DNA from: Chloroherpeton thalassium ATCC 35110
GTDB taxonomy: Bacteria > Bacteroidota > Chlorobiia > Chlorobiales > Chloroherpetonaceae
Length of the DNA stretch: 64,000 nucleotides
Assembly (NCBI RefSeq): GCF_000020525.1
Contig: NC_011026.1
Span: 2,524,001-2,588,000 of the forward strand
Direction: 5' to 3'
This document shows positions 56,290-64,000 of the stretch, in pieces (the stretch's first letter is position 1; each line of letters starts with the position of its first letter). The notes beneath the pieces were generated by a model. That model searched no databases, was not told the DNA's origin, and worked only from the letters and a program-made list of their open reading frames with translations. The position numbers and the translations under genes were made by a program.

Positions 56290-56317
56290 TTGATGGCTGC
56301 TTTGTTTTGACATGATG

Positions 56318-56345
56318 AGGGGCGTTTTTCGCCCCCTTTTTTATT
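56318..56345 (+). terminator. Intrinsic terminator after pstS-like gene
   Basis: AGGGGCG at 56318-56324 pairs with CGCCCC at 56330-56335 (T5 loop, 6-bp core) and is followed by C and a T6 tract from 56337. It separates the phosphate-binding gene from the T9SS sortase gene. Confidence 0.78.
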
Positions 56346-56470
56346 TCGAGCCGCTTGCAGTCAGGCTGTGGCGGGCGCATCATTTTCTGGTTGTCATTTC
56401 GGCTTGCCTTGAAAAACGCCTCCGGCATAAGTATATTTTCCCTCTTTCAAAGCAGCCATCGGAAATTTTA

Positions 56471-59400
56471 ATGAAAAAGCCTCTTCTAATATTCTTCTGG
56501 TTTGGACTTCTATATTCCGTTTTTGGAAAAAGTGTATTCGCGCAAGAAAACGCCAGCGATTCTGCCGATGTGAAAATCATCTCGTCGAGCGATTCGCGAG
56601 TCGTTTTTGAGTACACGCCAGTTTGGCAAACGCCGCGCGAAATCACGATTCATAACCAGACTTTTTATGAGTATAAAGCAACCGAAACCGCAGTCGAGAT
56701 GGCGCGAGCCGGGTTGCCAGTCATTCCTGTGAAAACCGTGCCGGTGATTATCGGAACTTCGCAGTCGCCGGTGGTTCAGGTCATTTCCGCCGCAACGCAG
56801 AAAGTGGAGGGCGTTCGCCTTGCGCCGTTGCCAAAATTCAATTTGGAGGAAAATGCGTGGGACTATGAAGAGGGGCGCGCGTATAGCACATTTTCATTTA
56901 GCAAAGTGGCGGAGGTGGCTTCGGTTGGGACGGCGAGAGGTTATCACGTGGCGTATATAAATATATATCCGCTCAGTTATGATGCGCAAACCAAAGTCTT
57001 GAAGAAGCGCACGCGAGTTGTGGTCAGCGTGTCATTTTCTTCGCCGAAGAAATCGGTGGTAAAGACAATGAAAACGACTTGGTCAAATCAGGTGGTTTCC
57101 GGTGCGATAAATTATGATGATGCAAAAAATTGGCAGGAATCTCGGGATAGATCGTCTCGCAAAACCAGCGCGCTCTCGGAAAGTGTCTTGCGCTCGGGAC
57201 GTTTTTATAAGCTTGAGGTTGCAAAAGAAGGCATTTATAAGCTCGATAAAACTTATCTGAATTCTATCGGCATTAGCACCAGCGCGATTGACCCCAAAAA
57301 ACTGAAGGTTTTCTTCAACGATGGCGAAGAGCTCGATCCCGCATTGGATGCCGAGAAAATTGATGACCTCAATGAATCGGCGATTTATGTTCATGGCGAA
57401 GCCGATGGCTCATTCGACGATGAGGATTATTTGCTTTTTTATGCGAAAACGACCAGCGGTGTAAAGTACGCAGTTCCAAAATATCCGCCTGGCGAAAGCA
57501 CAGCCAATGATGATGACGCACGCCTAACGCATTACAGAAATCGGCAAGCCGAAAGTGCGTATGCTTTTTTAGCGCTGGATGGCGATGACGGCCAGCGAAT
57601 TTCCACCACAAATTCGCTTACCGCGGCAAATCCGGTGCAAGCTGAAAGTTTTCAGAATTTGGTGTTTGTTGAAAATGAGTACAGAAATTTTGCAAACAGC
57701 GGCGGCGATTTGTTTGATGAGCCGCTCGGAAATTCGGACAGAGAAACAACCTACAAAGTCAGCCTTCCTGGAATTGACAAAACGGAAAACATCAACTATT
57801 TTTTTAAAGCCGTTTCCACCGGCGGATATGAAACGATTGCGATTTATGAAAACACCACGTTGCTCTCGTCCCAAAAAACAGGGTCGAAGCCAACCGGCTA
57901 TCTTGTTGGGCGATATGTTTGGGCAAGTGCCGAAGTTGCGGCAAGCGTTGTTTCCAGCGAGCAGTCGAATTTTCAAATCACGTATAGCCCAAGCCCTATT
58001 TCGGCACGTCTTTATCCCGATTGGCTTGAAATTACCTATCATCGGGATTTTCAGGCGGATGACGATGTGCTGAAATTCAATTCGTTGGTTTCGCTCACAA
58101 ACGGCGCCACAGTTGCTTATGAATTGACAAACTTTGAAAGCGAGCCGCGAATTTGGGAAATCACGGATATAAATAATATTCAGGAGATTGAGCCGCTAAG
58201 CCAAACAAAGTCGAGCGCGAAATTTCAAGCACAACTTTCTCCCGATACCTACCGCGAGTTTTTCGCTTTTTCAGATGCCGCTTCGTTTAACGAGCCGGCT
58301 TCAGCGGAGCTTTTGGACAATCAAAATTTGCATGGGTTCATCAGTGCGACAAGCTCGAGCAGAAATCCTGAGTATATAATAATATACGCCACCGATTATA
58401 AGTCTGACGCCGAACGCTTGCTTGCGCATCGAAGCAGCACTTCAATTTGGGGAAGCCATGCGTTAAGTGGAATTGCGGTAGATGCGCAGCAAGTCTACAA
58501 TGAGTTTTCCGGTGGCAAGCAAGATTTTACAGCCATTCGCGATTTTCTAAAGTTTTTATATGACAATGCTTCGAGCCTTGATGACGCGCCCAAATACGTA
58601 TTGCTTTTTGGCGATGGCGATTGGGATTTTCGCTCGATAAAAAATGATGATTACGAAAAGTTGGTCACGTATCAGTCCGACGAAGTTTTGGAGTTAGTAA
58701 ATGATGTTTCCATCGCGGATGATTTTTTTGGATCGGTTGATGGCGATGAGATTCCCGACGATATGGTGCCCGACATTGCCGTGGGGCGTTTGACGGTGCA
58801 ATCCGCAGATGAAGCCGCGCTGGCAGTTGACCGAATCATCGCTTATGAAACCGAGCATTCGCAAGGAAGTTGGCGAAATCATGTGGCGCTGGTGGCTGAT
58901 GATGGCCTCAACGGTGGTGCGACGGATGGCAGTTTATTTAGTGAGGATAGCGAAAATGTAGCTGCCGTTTTGCCCGATTATATCATGCCGGTGAAAATTT
59001 ATTCGGCTTTTTTTCCATCAGAAAGCGTGGTGGGCGGCAGTCGCAGGCCAGAAGCTTATGAGGAAATTATCAGTCAAATCAATCTTGGCGCGCTCTTCAC
59101 AAATTACGTTGGGCATGGAAGCCCTTCGCTTTGGGCAACAGAGCAGATTTTTGTGGCGTCGACTTCCATTTCAAAGCTAACAAATTCGGATCGACTCACA
59201 ATTGGCGTCGCGGCCACTTGCGATTTTGGCCGCATGGATGATCCGCTCGTGCAAAGCGGTGCTGAACAAATGTTCATTGCAAGCAATGGCGGAGCGGTTG
59301 CCATGTTCAGCACGACTCGTTCGATTTACATTTCAAGTGGAAGTGCGTATCCGCCGATTTTATTTCGGGAGATTTTTAGAAGAAATTCAGATGGTGAGTT

Positions 59401-60607
59401 GCAGCGGCTTGGCGATGGGTTTGTTGCGTTTAAAGCGCTGCGAGGTGGAGAAGTCGATGCAACCAAATTCGCCTTGATTGGCGATCCGGCCTTGCAACTT
59501 GCGGTCGGTAAACAAACGGTGGCAATTGACTCGATTAATGGCGCAGCGCTTTCGGATGAAGCGCCTGTGCAGATCGGTGCGCTCAGCAAAACCACTATTC
59601 AAGGATCGGTGCGCGATGAAGCGGGCAGCCGCTTGTCCGATTTTAGCGGCTCGGTGGCGGTTGTGGTCTATGACGCAGCGGAGGATAAAGGCGCCGACCA
59701 TTTTGCCACGAGCGAGTATGACGAATATTACGAGGTGCAAGATTCGAAAGTGTATAAAGGAACGGCGACCGTCGCAAATGGAAAGTTTCAGGTTAAGTTT
59801 ATTGTGCCAAGAGATATTAAGTATGACAGTGTAAAAACAGGTAAAATCAATCTTTATGCGTGGCCGGAATCGGGAACGCCGCTTGAAAATGCTTCGGGTG
59901 GAACAACGGCGCTTACCTTTTTCGGAACGGACGAAAGCGCGATCGATGATACGGAAGGGCCGGTGGTTGAAATGTTTTTAAACGATAATTCCTTTCGCTC
60001 CGGTGGGATAACCGATGAAAATCCGGTTTTCTTGGCTGAGCTTTACGACGAAAGCGGAATTAACTTGACGCAAACCACGGGAAAGTTTATGTCGTTGGTG
60101 ATCGATAGCGACGAGGCAAATCCGATCATGCTGAATGATTATTATGAGGCCGTTTCGGAAAGTTTAACGGAGGGAAAAATTCAATACCCGATGCACGATT
60201 TGAGCGCCGGAACACACCATTTGGCATTTAAGGTTTGGGATAACTACAACAATTCTTCTGAGTCGGAATTGTACTTCACGGTTCAGAGCAGCGATGCGCT
60301 GAGCTTGGCCGAGCCGCTAAATTTCCCGAACCCATTTTCCAACAAAACGATTTTTATGCTTTCGCACAATCGCACCGGCGATAATATTCAAACCACCATT
60401 AAAATTTATACCATTGCAGGCCGGCTCATAAAAACCTTGAAGCAAACCGATTATACCGCGCCCGCGATGATACAAATTCCTTGGGATGGCCGCGACGATG
60501 ATGGCTCAAAAATTGCAAACGGCATTTATTTATATAAAGTGATGATGAAAAGTCTCTCGGGCAATTTTCATGCGGAAGCGCTGCAAAAATTGGCGGTGGC
60601 GAGGTAA
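56471..60607 (+). CDS. porU: PorU-like C25 (gingipain-type) peptidase, T9SS sortase
   Basis: About 1378 residues from ATG 56471, where a signal peptide begins (MKKPLLIFFWFGLLYSVFG, FAQ). An N-terminal propeptide-like region (to about 230) is followed by immunoglobulin-like parts and the C25 domain (about 680-1010). Catalytic residues are His882 in NYVGHGSP and Cys917 in ATCDFGRMDDP, the C25 dyad with PorU-like TATC.F spacing. The C-terminus is a T9SS sorting domain (FPNPFSNKTIFML, IYTIAGRLIKTL, ANGIYLYKV). PorU cleaves the sorting domain and attaches cargo to the surface. A PorV/PorQ-type tail and an M6-like cargo gene lie nearby. Confidence 0.82.
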   Translation: MKKPLLIFFWFGLLYSVFGKSVFAQENASDSADVKIISSSDSRVVFEYTPVWQTPREITIHNQTFYEYKATETAVEMARAGLPVIPVKTVPVIIGTSQSPVVQVISAATQKVEGVRLAPLPKFNLEENAWDYEEGRAYSTFSFSKVAEVASVGTARGYHVAYINIYPLSYDAQTKVLKKRTRVVVSVSFSSPKKSVVKTMKTTWSNQVVSGAINYDDAKNWQESRDRSSRKTSALSESVLRSGRFYKLEVAKEGIYKLDKTYLNSIGISTSAIDPKKLKVFFNDGEELDPALDAEKIDDLNESAIYVHGEADGSFDDEDYLLFYAKTTSGVKYAVPKYPPGESTANDDDARLTHYRNRQAESAYAFLALDGDDGQRISTTNSLTAANPVQAESFQNLVFVENEYRNFANSGGDLFDEPLGNSDRETTYKVSLPGIDKTENINYFFKAVSTGGYETIAIYENTTLLSSQKTGSKPTGYLVGRYVWASAEVAASVVSSEQSNFQITYSPSPISARLYPDWLEITYHRDFQADDDVLKFNSLVSLTNGATVAYELTNFESEPRIWEITDINNIQEIEPLSQTKSSAKFQAQLSPDTYREFFAFSDAASFNEPASAELLDNQNLHGFISATSSSRNPEYIIIYATDYKSDAERLLAHRSSTSIWGSHALSGIAVDAQQVYNEFSGGKQDFTAIRDFLKFLYDNASSLDDAPKYVLLFGDGDWDFRSIKNDDYEKLVTYQSDEVLELVNDVSIADDFFGSVDGDEIPDDMVPDIAVGRLTVQSADEAALAVDRIIAYETEHSQGSWRNHVALVADDGLNGGATDGSLFSEDSENVAAVLPDYIMPVKIYSAFFPSESVVGGSRRPEAYEEIISQINLGALFTNYVGHGSPSLWATEQIFVASTSISKLTNSDRLTIGVAATCDFGRMDDPLVQSGAEQMFIASNGGAVAMFSTTRSIYISSGSAYPPILFREIFRRNSDGELQRLGDGFVAFKALRGGEVDATKFALIGDPALQLAVGKQTVAIDSINGAALSDEAPVQIGALSKTTIQGSVRDEAGSRLSDFSGSVAVVVYDAAEDKGADHFATSEYDEYYEVQDSKVYKGTATVANGKFQVKFIVPRDIKYDSVKTGKINLYAWPESGTPLENASGGTTALTFFGTDESAIDDTEGPVVEMFLNDNSFRSGGITDENPVFLAELYDESGINLTQTTGKFMSLVIDSDEANPIMLNDYYEAVSESLTEGKIQYPMHDLSAGTHHLAFKVWDNYNNSSESELYFTVQSSDALSLAEPLNFPNPFSNKTIFMLSHNRTGDNIQTTIKIYTIAGRLIKTLKQTDYTAPAMIQIPWDGRDDDGSKIANGIYLYKVMMKSLSGNFHAEALQKLAVAR

Positions 60608-60612
60608 AATTG

Positions 60613-60634
60613 GAGCGGGTTTTGCAGCCCGCTC
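60613..60634. terminator. Hairpin between convergent T9SS genes
   Basis: GAGCGGG at 60613-60619 pairs with CCCGCTC at 60628-60634, loop of 8. No clear T run follows on either strand, so it may be a weak or Rho-assisted terminator for both porU (stop 60607) and the M6-like gene (stop 60684, minus). Confidence 0.45.
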
Positions 60635-60683
60635 ACAACTCATATTCCAAAGCCTGGTGTGGAAAACAGAAATCCTAACGCCG

Positions 60684-63600
60684 TTACTTGACAACAGCGA
60701 CTTTCAGTTTCACAAGGTGTTCTGCATCGCTGTTTTTCGCCTTCACAATGCCGAAATAAATTCCGCTTGCAACATTGCCGAGCGACCAAACCACTTCGTT
60801 GTCAATATTGGCCACACCGCGAACACTTTTTTTCCAGACTTCATTTCCCGTTAGGTCATAGACTTTGATGTCCACATCGCAAGCTTGTGTGAGGTAAAAT
60901 CTGAACCGTGTTTCATCTTTTGCCGGATTTGGCCAGTTATAGACGCTTTTTTCCGGCATGAGCGATGTGATGGAAACTTGCTCACGATCGCTTGTGGTTT
61001 GCGGCGTATAGACGTTTTGATTGGTTGAATTGGCATAAAGTCCGCTCCACTGAATGTTGGCCGTTCCTTTCGGCAGAGTAAACGCGTTTAAAAAGCCGCC
61101 GTGATCCACCGCGAAGAGATAAAGCGCCTGTGCGTTTTCGTCAAAATAAACGGATGGCGTCGCTGATGAACCGGCAGAGAGGGCGTATTCCAAAATTTTG
61201 TCGCCATCACGGTTGTAGCCGAGCAATTTTCCGTCGGGCGTTTGAATTAAAATTTCCTCGTAGGTGTCGCCATCTATATCGAGGACAATAGGGCTGGACG
61301 CAATCGCGCTGTCGGCATGTGTTTCAATCGGGAAGTTCGTGACGAGAAAGCCTTGCTCGTTGTAGGCATAAAGCTTATCCGAAGCGGGGAAGAGAACGCA
61401 GAGCGCCTTGCGATGCTCAAGGTCGGCAATGGCTGGCCAAGCTTGAAGCGCGTTGTTGCATGGCACGCTGACCGTGCGACTCGTCCCATCGGCGAAAAGC
61501 AAAAAGAGCTTTTTTTCTTGCGTTAAAACGGCGGCCAGCCAACCTTCGCTGTTGCCGGTTCCTGCAAATGAAACGGCGGTATTGTTGCCGAAGTCCCACG
61601 ATATGCTGTTTAAAATCGCTTTTTGTTCAGTGACAATCATATCGTCGGCAAAGCCCAAAATTTTGCCCGACGAGAAATGTTGCACTGTTGAGTCTGCCGT
61701 GAATTGGCCATCTTCAATTTTAAATTCATAGGTTTTTCCGGCTACGGTTCCAACTTTTAGCGAGGTGCCATCGCTGTTCAAAACGGGCGGCGTAGAAATG
61801 GCGTCGCTGGTGGTAAGCGAATCGATGGTGTAGGTCGAACCGGTTTTTGCCATCAGATAAATGGATTTGCCGTGAACCGTTGCGATGCTGCCGTTTTCCG
61901 AAATTGCCGGTTTGCGCGAGGCGATTTGCGGTTCGTCGGTCAAGAAGGTCGCGATCGAAAACGCGTCCGAAAGGAAATAAACTCGAGCGGAATCGTTTGC
62001 ATCATTCAAGAGCAAGGCGAGTTCGCTCCCCGAAGGGTTTTGCAAAATGCTGATGCCGCTTTGCTCTGAAAATTTGCCAGAAAGTTCAACTGGAAACCCT
62101 TCGATCGCCTTGAGCAAGTTTTGGCTTCGAAGCACTTGCACGGTCATGATTGTGCCTTGTTCTGAGAAAGCGGTGAACTGAATGCCAGTTTCGGCGCCGT
62201 TGTTTGCATTGGTGTTTGGGTAAGTCTCGGCGTCGATTTCATTTTTATAAATGGGAGAAAGGTTGCCTTCAAAAAAATAGTCCAGCGGGCTGCCTGATTG
62301 TGTGCCGTAGCCGGCGTCGGTTAAGCTATAATCCTCCCCAATGTCGTTCGAGCCGTCGGCCTCTAAAAGCCGAACGCCGTGAACCTCGCCGGCATTGACT
62401 TTATTTTCCGCTAATTGATTGTCTATAACGCTCTCATCGATGTGCCAAATGAGAATGCCACCGTCGACTTGGATTTGATTGCCATTGTCGTCTTCAACGA
62501 GTCCGGCTGGAATGGTCCAATCGTAGTTGGAACTTGCGATCACATCGCCGTCGAGGGCGGCCGCGCTGTAGAACTCGAAATCATCTTCATCTTTTGTGAA
62601 CGTGTCGGTCAGTTCTTGACCGTTGAAATAGCGCGTAATGGTAACGCCGTTTCCTTTGGCGTTGCGATGGCGATTTTCAATGAGAAAATATTCTGTGGAA
62701 GAAATAGGTACTTTATAAATCACCGAATCGGGATTTTGGTGCAAGCCTTGCGCGGGCAAGGAAATGACCTCGTCTAAGCTTTGAACAAGAATCGGGTTTG
62801 CCCAGCCTAAAAAAATGCGTTCCCACGCGGACGGCTCGGGGGGCAAAATGCCGCTATAATTGAAAATGCCTTCGCCATCGGCCAGGCCAAAACGGCCAAT
62901 GCCGCTGCTGCCGTCTTCTGTGTTGAAAAGATCAGGCAGGCCAAGAATGCTCGCAAAACTTGCCGCAGCAAGGCCATTGATTGAAAGCTCCAAAAGCACA
63001 TCGCCGCCGATAGCCTCAATTTCGCGCGATTCCGTCTGAGGCAAAACCGCCGTGTTGGTGATTTTTACGGTGCCATTTTCAACGGAAATGCCGTCGAAGT
63101 CCTCGCCATAGACATTTTGAAGCGTAGCTAAATTGAAGGTAATTGACGGAATGTCGTAAGGCGTGGGATCGACGCCGGTGGATGCAACCATATCTACATC
63201 GCGGCCAATACCGGCATGAAAAATTACAAACGCCTGATATTTCGAAAAGTCGATGTCCGCGCTGCTGGTATCTACCATCTGCCAAACTTCTTTTACCATC
63301 TCAGCCAAGTTGGTCATATCGTCGCTGTCCTTCGGCGGTGCATAGTTGCTCATCGATTGGCTCAGCCGATAAACGGTGTCGGGCACGGTATATTCTATCA
63401 TCAAATTGCCATCGCTAACCGTTTTGAAATAGTGCTGGACAAACTGAAGTTTTCTTTCAAAATAAGAGCAGTTGTGAGGCAAAGGGTCTATGATGTTTTC
63501 GCCGTGTTGGGGTAAAAAATCCAGTCCGTCGAACTGGCCGTTGCCGGTGGTTTTCGAATCATCGTCTTCTTGAAAATCAACCATAACCGCCAAGATGTGA

Positions 63601-63770
63601 TAAGTGCCAACAGCCGGCGTGGCCAACGTGGAGCTGGAACTTTGGTTCAGGCGGTGTGAGAGTTTGTAGTTTGAGTCAGGATTTTTCGCATGTGCGTTGG
63701 CAAAAGAGAGGACAAAAATCACGCAAAAAAAGCTCCGAAGAAAGCGATAAAAGCAGGGTTGTTTCGGCAT
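60684..63770 (-). CDS. M6-family metalloprotease-like T9SS protein lacking the zinc site (pseudopeptidase)
   Basis: A 1028-residue secreted protein: signal peptide (FFCVIFVLSFANAHA), an M6/immune-inhibitor-A-like region (about 50-540), a PQQ/propeller-like C-terminal region (about 590-930) and a T9SS sorting domain (VYNWPNPAKDETRFRFYL, GNVASGIYFGIVKAK). M6 proteases have AHEFGHxLGLPDL; here residues 269-281 read AASFASILGLPDL, so both His and the Glu are replaced. Downstream GILIWHIDE is still conserved. It is probably a non-catalytic surface protein. Its frame is intact over the whole length, so it is not decaying. Confidence 0.85.
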   Translation of the reverse strand: MPKQPCFYRFLRSFFCVIFVLSFANAHAKNPDSNYKLSHRLNQSSSSTLATPAVGTYHILAVMVDFQEDDDSKTTGNGQFDGLDFLPQHGENIIDPLPHNCSYFERKLQFVQHYFKTVSDGNLMIEYTVPDTVYRLSQSMSNYAPPKDSDDMTNLAEMVKEVWQMVDTSSADIDFSKYQAFVIFHAGIGRDVDMVASTGVDPTPYDIPSITFNLATLQNVYGEDFDGISVENGTVKITNTAVLPQTESREIEAIGGDVLLELSINGLAAASFASILGLPDLFNTEDGSSGIGRFGLADGEGIFNYSGILPPEPSAWERIFLGWANPILVQSLDEVISLPAQGLHQNPDSVIYKVPISSTEYFLIENRHRNAKGNGVTITRYFNGQELTDTFTKDEDDFEFYSAAALDGDVIASSNYDWTIPAGLVEDDNGNQIQVDGGILIWHIDESVIDNQLAENKVNAGEVHGVRLLEADGSNDIGEDYSLTDAGYGTQSGSPLDYFFEGNLSPIYKNEIDAETYPNTNANNGAETGIQFTAFSEQGTIMTVQVLRSQNLLKAIEGFPVELSGKFSEQSGISILQNPSGSELALLLNDANDSARVYFLSDAFSIATFLTDEPQIASRKPAISENGSIATVHGKSIYLMAKTGSTYTIDSLTTSDAISTPPVLNSDGTSLKVGTVAGKTYEFKIEDGQFTADSTVQHFSSGKILGFADDMIVTEQKAILNSISWDFGNNTAVSFAGTGNSEGWLAAVLTQEKKLFLLFADGTSRTVSVPCNNALQAWPAIADLEHRKALCVLFPASDKLYAYNEQGFLVTNFPIETHADSAIASSPIVLDIDGDTYEEILIQTPDGKLLGYNRDGDKILEYALSAGSSATPSVYFDENAQALYLFAVDHGGFLNAFTLPKGTANIQWSGLYANSTNQNVYTPQTTSDREQVSITSLMPEKSVYNWPNPAKDETRFRFYLTQACDVDIKVYDLTGNEVWKKSVRGVANIDNEVVWSLGNVASGIYFGIVKAKNSDAEHLVKLKVAVVK

Positions 63771-63815: not shown

Positions 63816-63856
63816 AGCGTGCTTTCGCTCGTATGGGTGACGAACGGAAGCACGCT
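63816..63856. repeat. Imperfect inverted repeat upstream of the M6-like gene
   Basis: AGCGTGCTTTCGCTCG at 63816-63831 pairs with CGAACGGAAGCACGCT at 63841-63856 with two non-Watson-Crick positions. It lies between the PorV/PorQ-type gene stop (63877) and the M6-like gene start, so in minus-strand RNA it could be a processing or attenuation hairpin. Confidence 0.45.
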
Positions 63857-63876: not shown

Positions 63877-64000
63877 TTATATACCAGCTTTCGGGAAGTT
63901 AAGCAAGACTGAGAAGCGAACCGTGCCGTCAAGTGGATGGTTTTCTTCAATGGCGCTAAGGTAGCTGAAGTCAACCCCGAAGCTGGAGTAGCGAACGCCA
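63877..64000 (-). CDS. PorV/PorQ-family outer-membrane protein, C-terminal end
   Basis: Only the last 41 codons are inside the window, continuing past the right edge. They read GVRYSSFGVDFSYL, EENHPLDGTVRFSVLLNF and end KAGI. The HPL..T.RFSL.. closing strand is the hallmark of the PorV/PorQ (FadL-like) barrels used by T9SS to carry sorting-domain proteins to PorU. The short length means PorV and PorQ cannot be told apart. It is likely the first gene of a minus-strand unit with the M6-like gene. Confidence 0.68.
   Translation of the reverse strand, partial: GVRYSSFGVDFSYLSAIEENHPLDGTVRFSVLLNFPKAGI

Follow-up and report, generated by a model that had tools for sequence, protein, structure and literature searches.

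The 64,000-nucleotide stretch of Chloroherpeton thalassium ATCC 35110 DNA analysed here (the window) encodes M6i, a secreted M6-like protein whose cutting site, judged from aligned sequences, has long since been lost throughout the sampled family, and whose gene, m6i, is joined to porV in almost every locus examined. M6i may be, with nearly even chances, a dedicated surface partner of PorV, namely a pseudoprotease that would bind through its dead cleft and its propeller. On that reading, the partnership would extend over much of the Bacteroidota/Chlorobiota/Ignavibacteriota group. The features of the locus are:

56312..60607, plus strand: porU, T9SS sortase (C25); NF033707 969 bits, PF01364 E=1.8e-95
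60684..63770, minus strand: m6i, T9SS-dependent M6-like inactivated metalloprotease, 1028 aa; NF052323 838 bits, residues 17-1028
60687..60944, minus strand: type A C-terminal sorting domain, residues 943-1028; TIGR04183, PF18962; predicted all-strand fold, pLDDT ~95
61056..62054, minus strand: probable beta-propeller region, ~residues 573-905, fast evolving; strand pattern of the model, Foldseek matches to WD40-type propellers
62115..63614, minus strand: M6-like domain, residues 53-552; predicted fold, Foldseek against InhA2 zymogen 4yu6, TIGR03296 below cut-off
62919..62978, minus strand: pseudo-active-site motif NGLAAASFASILGLPDLFNT, residues 265-284; HExxH absent there in all orthologues
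62949-62963, minus strand: ASFAS in place of HEFGH, within the pseudo-active-site motif
63687..63770, minus strand: signal peptide, ~residues 1-28, MPKQPCFYRFLRSFFCVIFVLSFANAHA; by eye, helix 8-26 in the AlphaFold2 model
63877..64000, minus strand: 3' end of porV, the gene running on to ~64989 beyond the window; NF033710, PF19572, NF033709

The m6i frame reads through without an internal stop, and the plus strand at 60684-63770 is full of stops. On the grounds of dN/dS in relatives and conservation over 19 families, we regard m6i as a genuine gene. M6i matched the NCBIfam model NF052323 (T9SSA_dep_M6i) over model positions 6-1043 of 1043, scoring 838 bits where the cut-off is 600, and its sorting domain matched TIGR04183 (E=9e-07) and PF18962 (E=6.4e-07), both of the type A T9SS. 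The intact 1028-codon frame with signal peptide and sorting domain given in a preliminary description of the locus is confirmed. With a signal peptide (by eye) and a C-terminal sorting domain, in a genome where SprA, PorV, PorU, PorZ and PorQ are all present, M6i has the marks of a type A T9SS cargo. Since NCBIfam already holds NF052323, an equivalog named 'T9SS-dependent M6-like inactivated metalloprotease', the reported loss of the site is a correct rediscovery, and its novelty falls away with the family already curated by NCBI as inactivated. The match to TIGR03296 reached 56.8 bits against a cut-off of 110.8, while PF05547 (Pfam M6) gave no match in M6i and matched only 6/49 orthologues at E<=0.001.

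Residues 269-281 of M6i read AASFASILGLPDL and WHIDE lies at 442-446, as previously described, with the minus strand left unstated. HEFGH of M6 proteins aligns with A270-S271-F272-A273-S274, after which an intact LGLPDL follows, so that both histidines and the catalytic Glu are indeed replaced. No HExxH was found anywhere in the 1028 residues. At the M6 site it was likewise absent from all of more than 100 orthologues in 19 families, drawn from 40 wide loci plus a few others and from 80 named loci, with genomes partly shared between the sets. Both proposed checks, for an alternative HExxH in the protein and for orthologues with an intact site, therefore came out in favour of the loss. The orthologue site reads NGLlxASxgSxLGLPDLF-like, and the four of 80 named loci that fall outside the simple motif pattern also encode proteins without HExxH. 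A restored or alternative HExxH was considered in the orthologues and rejected, the sole candidate being a HEMAH (locus L064) around residue 139, well away from the site. When genome contigs were searched, the M6i alignment as query gave 417 matches and the single protein none. In one orthologue (L011, G011:C94), close to the end of the contig, the C-terminal part lies in a second frame; a broken assembly or a local mutation is the probable cause.

Active M6 paralogues of the same genomes keep HEFGH/HEYGH..GLPD. In a maximum-likelihood tree, for which the tool warns of long branches, 20 M6i rows were split from nine active M6 rows by a 100/100 branch. Apart from M6i, the genome of the window gave no further M6 match.

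The M6 fold is predicted to be retained. AlphaFold2 modelled full-length M6i with a pLDDT of 87.2 and a pTM of 0.86, and Foldseek likened the middle region of this model to beta-propellers; this region matched PF13570 below cut-off (E=3.4e-06). Because the propeller matches swamped the full-length fold search, the M6-like domain was modelled alone (pLDDT 92.9, pTM 0.93), and its best solved match was the InhA2 peptidase zymogen 4yu6 (E=3.7e-14). Sequence searches against solved structures returned nothing credible.

Whole-gene dN/dS in close pairs was mostly 0.04-0.18 and fell to ~0-0.03 around the dead site; these values come from other genera, as the nearest relative of the window's m6i is 49% identical, and saturated pairs were left out. 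Mean conservation was 3.2 bits at residues 260-300, the highest in M6i, compared with 2.4 elsewhere in the M6 domain, 1.1 in the propeller and 2.5 in the sorting domain. Mean identity of the sorting domain was 0.46 in M6i and 0.45 in PorU, the comparison covering these two proteins. By these measures m6i is under purifying selection, strongest around the dead site, and the changed site is preserved as such, with no decay. The dN/dS measurement that had been proposed thus returned purifying selection, and the earlier reading of a secreted pseudopeptidase kept by selection is supported by the shared loss, the secretion signals and this constraint.

The porV gene (NF033710, 284 bits at G000:C1:2587895-2588929) lies directly upstream on the same strand with a spacer of 106 bp; sitting at the window edge, it had been overlooked. 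In relatives, porV likewise stands directly before m6i on the same strand in 39/40 fetched loci (spanning 19 families) and in 74/75 of the named loci that extend far enough, two sets that overlap by about a dozen genomes. Distances in the 40 fetched loci were taken between stop-to-stop frames rather than as exact spacers, and therefore show that no gene fits between porV and m6i. At the window locus porU is inverted, being convergent with m6i at 76 bp, and the order porU-porV-m6i holds in 29/40 loci; linkage to porU is looser than that to porV. The statement that the protein is kept next to the T9SS sortase is accordingly weakened: the stable neighbour is porV, and M6i and PorV persist after loss of PorU in seven genomes. 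No paper on the M6i family or its porV linkage was found in the open-access papers searched, and the linkage is apparently unreported there.

Several further observations concern this locus. The listed porU frame starts ~53 codons too early (56312-56470); the signal peptide opens with MKKPLLIFFWF near 56471, where the true start likely lies. In 15/19 families, m6i is directly followed by a propeller protein that matches Peptidase_MA_2 weakly (e.g. L086:5412-8639 (-)), and a DUF5683 protein often lies downstream of it (13/19 families). The porV-m6i spacer contains a strong hairpin of 16 pairs (63816-63856, minus strand; spacer -30.3 kcal/mol, z -3.5) without a T run, possibly a site of RNA processing or attenuation. 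A second hairpin (GAGCGGG...CCCGCTC, 60613-60635), again without a T run, comes immediately after the stop of porU in the gap separating it from the convergent m6i, and is perhaps a terminator. Scans for promoters and terminators stayed at chance level.

M6i was detected in 94/248 genomes sampled across the GTDB phylum (89 over the cut-off and five weaker), and PorU in 167/248. Within the 19 families that have M6i, it occurs in 87/88 PorU-positive genomes, compared with 0/79 PorU-positive genomes of other families, so M6i behaves like a fixed component that is passed on vertically. M6i is absent from many of the phylum's T9SS-bearing families, and in Chlorobiaceae-like relatives (f4) PorU, PorZ and M6i are all absent. 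Active M6 is patchy, over the cut-off in 7/18 genomes, all 18 of which have M6i.

All M6i genomes without PorU belong to one family, f18. Seven of its genomes keep M6i, SprA and PorV and have 7-32 sorting-domain matches, and neither PorU, nor a C25 peptidase (E<=0.001), nor PorZ was found in them; PorQ was absent from the four of these seven genomes tested, with weak PorV-family matches only (4/4). At least two separate losses of PorU are likely, because genus g46 has relatives with PorU. Since G174 and G233 (genus g56, same family) keep SprA and PorV without M6i, M6i is not essential to the machine.

Across nine genomes (G107, G122, G142, G150, G189, G213, G240, G174 and G233), SprA, PorV and sorting-domain proteins occur without PorU or any C25 peptidase; by gene content, a type IX system seems to be kept there without its sortase. 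Replacement of PorZ by M6i was also considered, and was rejected on the presence of PorZ in genomes that have M6i.

How M6i would work with PorV can be outlined as follows. The type A sorting domain of M6i would take it out through SprA, and PorV, which collects type A sorting domains (PMC12618676), would then pick it up. M6i would remain in contact with PorV, perhaps held there by an uncleaved sorting domain, for which P. gingivalis, where uncleaved substrates stay PorV-bound, offers a precedent (PMC5562754). The dead M6 cleft (NGLlxASxgSxLGLPDLF) and the propeller would serve as binding surfaces, for example holding newly exported substrates at PorV. The linkage to porV, the near-fixed presence, the persistence without PorU or PorZ, the purifying selection and the conserved sorting domain all support such a partnership, and the most economical reading has M6i working together with PorV rather than the sortase.

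The main rival, possible though doubtful, takes M6i as a normal, if conserved, cargo of the T9SS: a surface binder (adhesin, or capture of polymers or peptides) with its gene carried along in the porU-porV operon. Its sorting domain is of standard type A, its propeller diverges fast, as expected of a surface binder, and gene linkage alone could, by analogy, place a cargo with its shuttle, as in type B cargos, which are often linked to shuttle genes (PMC12618676). However, M6i is near-universal in 19 families with conserved linkage, unlike the patchy active M6 proteins, and linkage to a single cargo needs a reason because PorV serves all type A cargos. Nothing we found points to the adhesin or the decoy offered in the preliminary description. 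It is improbable that M6i belongs to the PorU-PorV-PorQ-PorZ attachment complex as a clade-specific subunit aiding the sortase: the gene order seen in 29/40 loci and the likeness to PorU and PorZ as surface proteins with a sorting domain would fit, but M6i is present in seven genomes without PorU or PorZ, of which the four tested also lacked PorQ.

The remaining readings concern the site itself. Conservation of the third-ligand position D280, and of H185 and H443, would agree with a metalloenzyme that has rearranged its metal site, yet every orthologue has small or polar residues in place of both zinc histidines and the catalytic Glu, and the HAG motif (H185) predates the change because it is common to active M6 proteins; this we consider very unlikely. 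A strain-level pseudogene or sequencing error, in favour of which nothing was found, is refuted by a loss common to more than 100 orthologues, and the intact frame and purifying selection leave it virtually no room.

Type IX secretion is known mostly from Porphyromonas and Flavobacterium, and the sampled families on that side of the group mostly have no M6i. If M6i works with PorV, the T9SS of a large and mostly uncultured branch would contain one more component, and lineages without PorU would provide a natural test of how PorV functions in the absence of a sortase.

Compared with known systems, M6i is a full member of NF052323, with the same architecture and sorting domain, and the name of that model gives no function, partner or operon. 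With peptidase M6 / immune inhibitor A (InhA2 zymogen, PDB 4yu6) it shares the predicted fold and the LGLPDL, HAG and WHID-like motifs, but it differs in the absence of HExxH and the catalytic Glu, in scoring below the TIGR03296 cut-off and in forming a separate clade. Like M6i, PorU (C25 sortase) and PorZ, both of the attachment complex, are surface proteins bearing a sorting domain of type A, and PorU is encoded with porV; M6i is neither, as separate genes encode them in this genome (window 56312; G000:C1:1934723) and M6i outlasts the loss of both. In type B cargos linked to their shuttles (SprB/SprF and the like), the gene of a secreted protein stands beside that of its shuttle, as for M6i, whereas M6i carries a type A domain and adjoins the general shuttle PorV.
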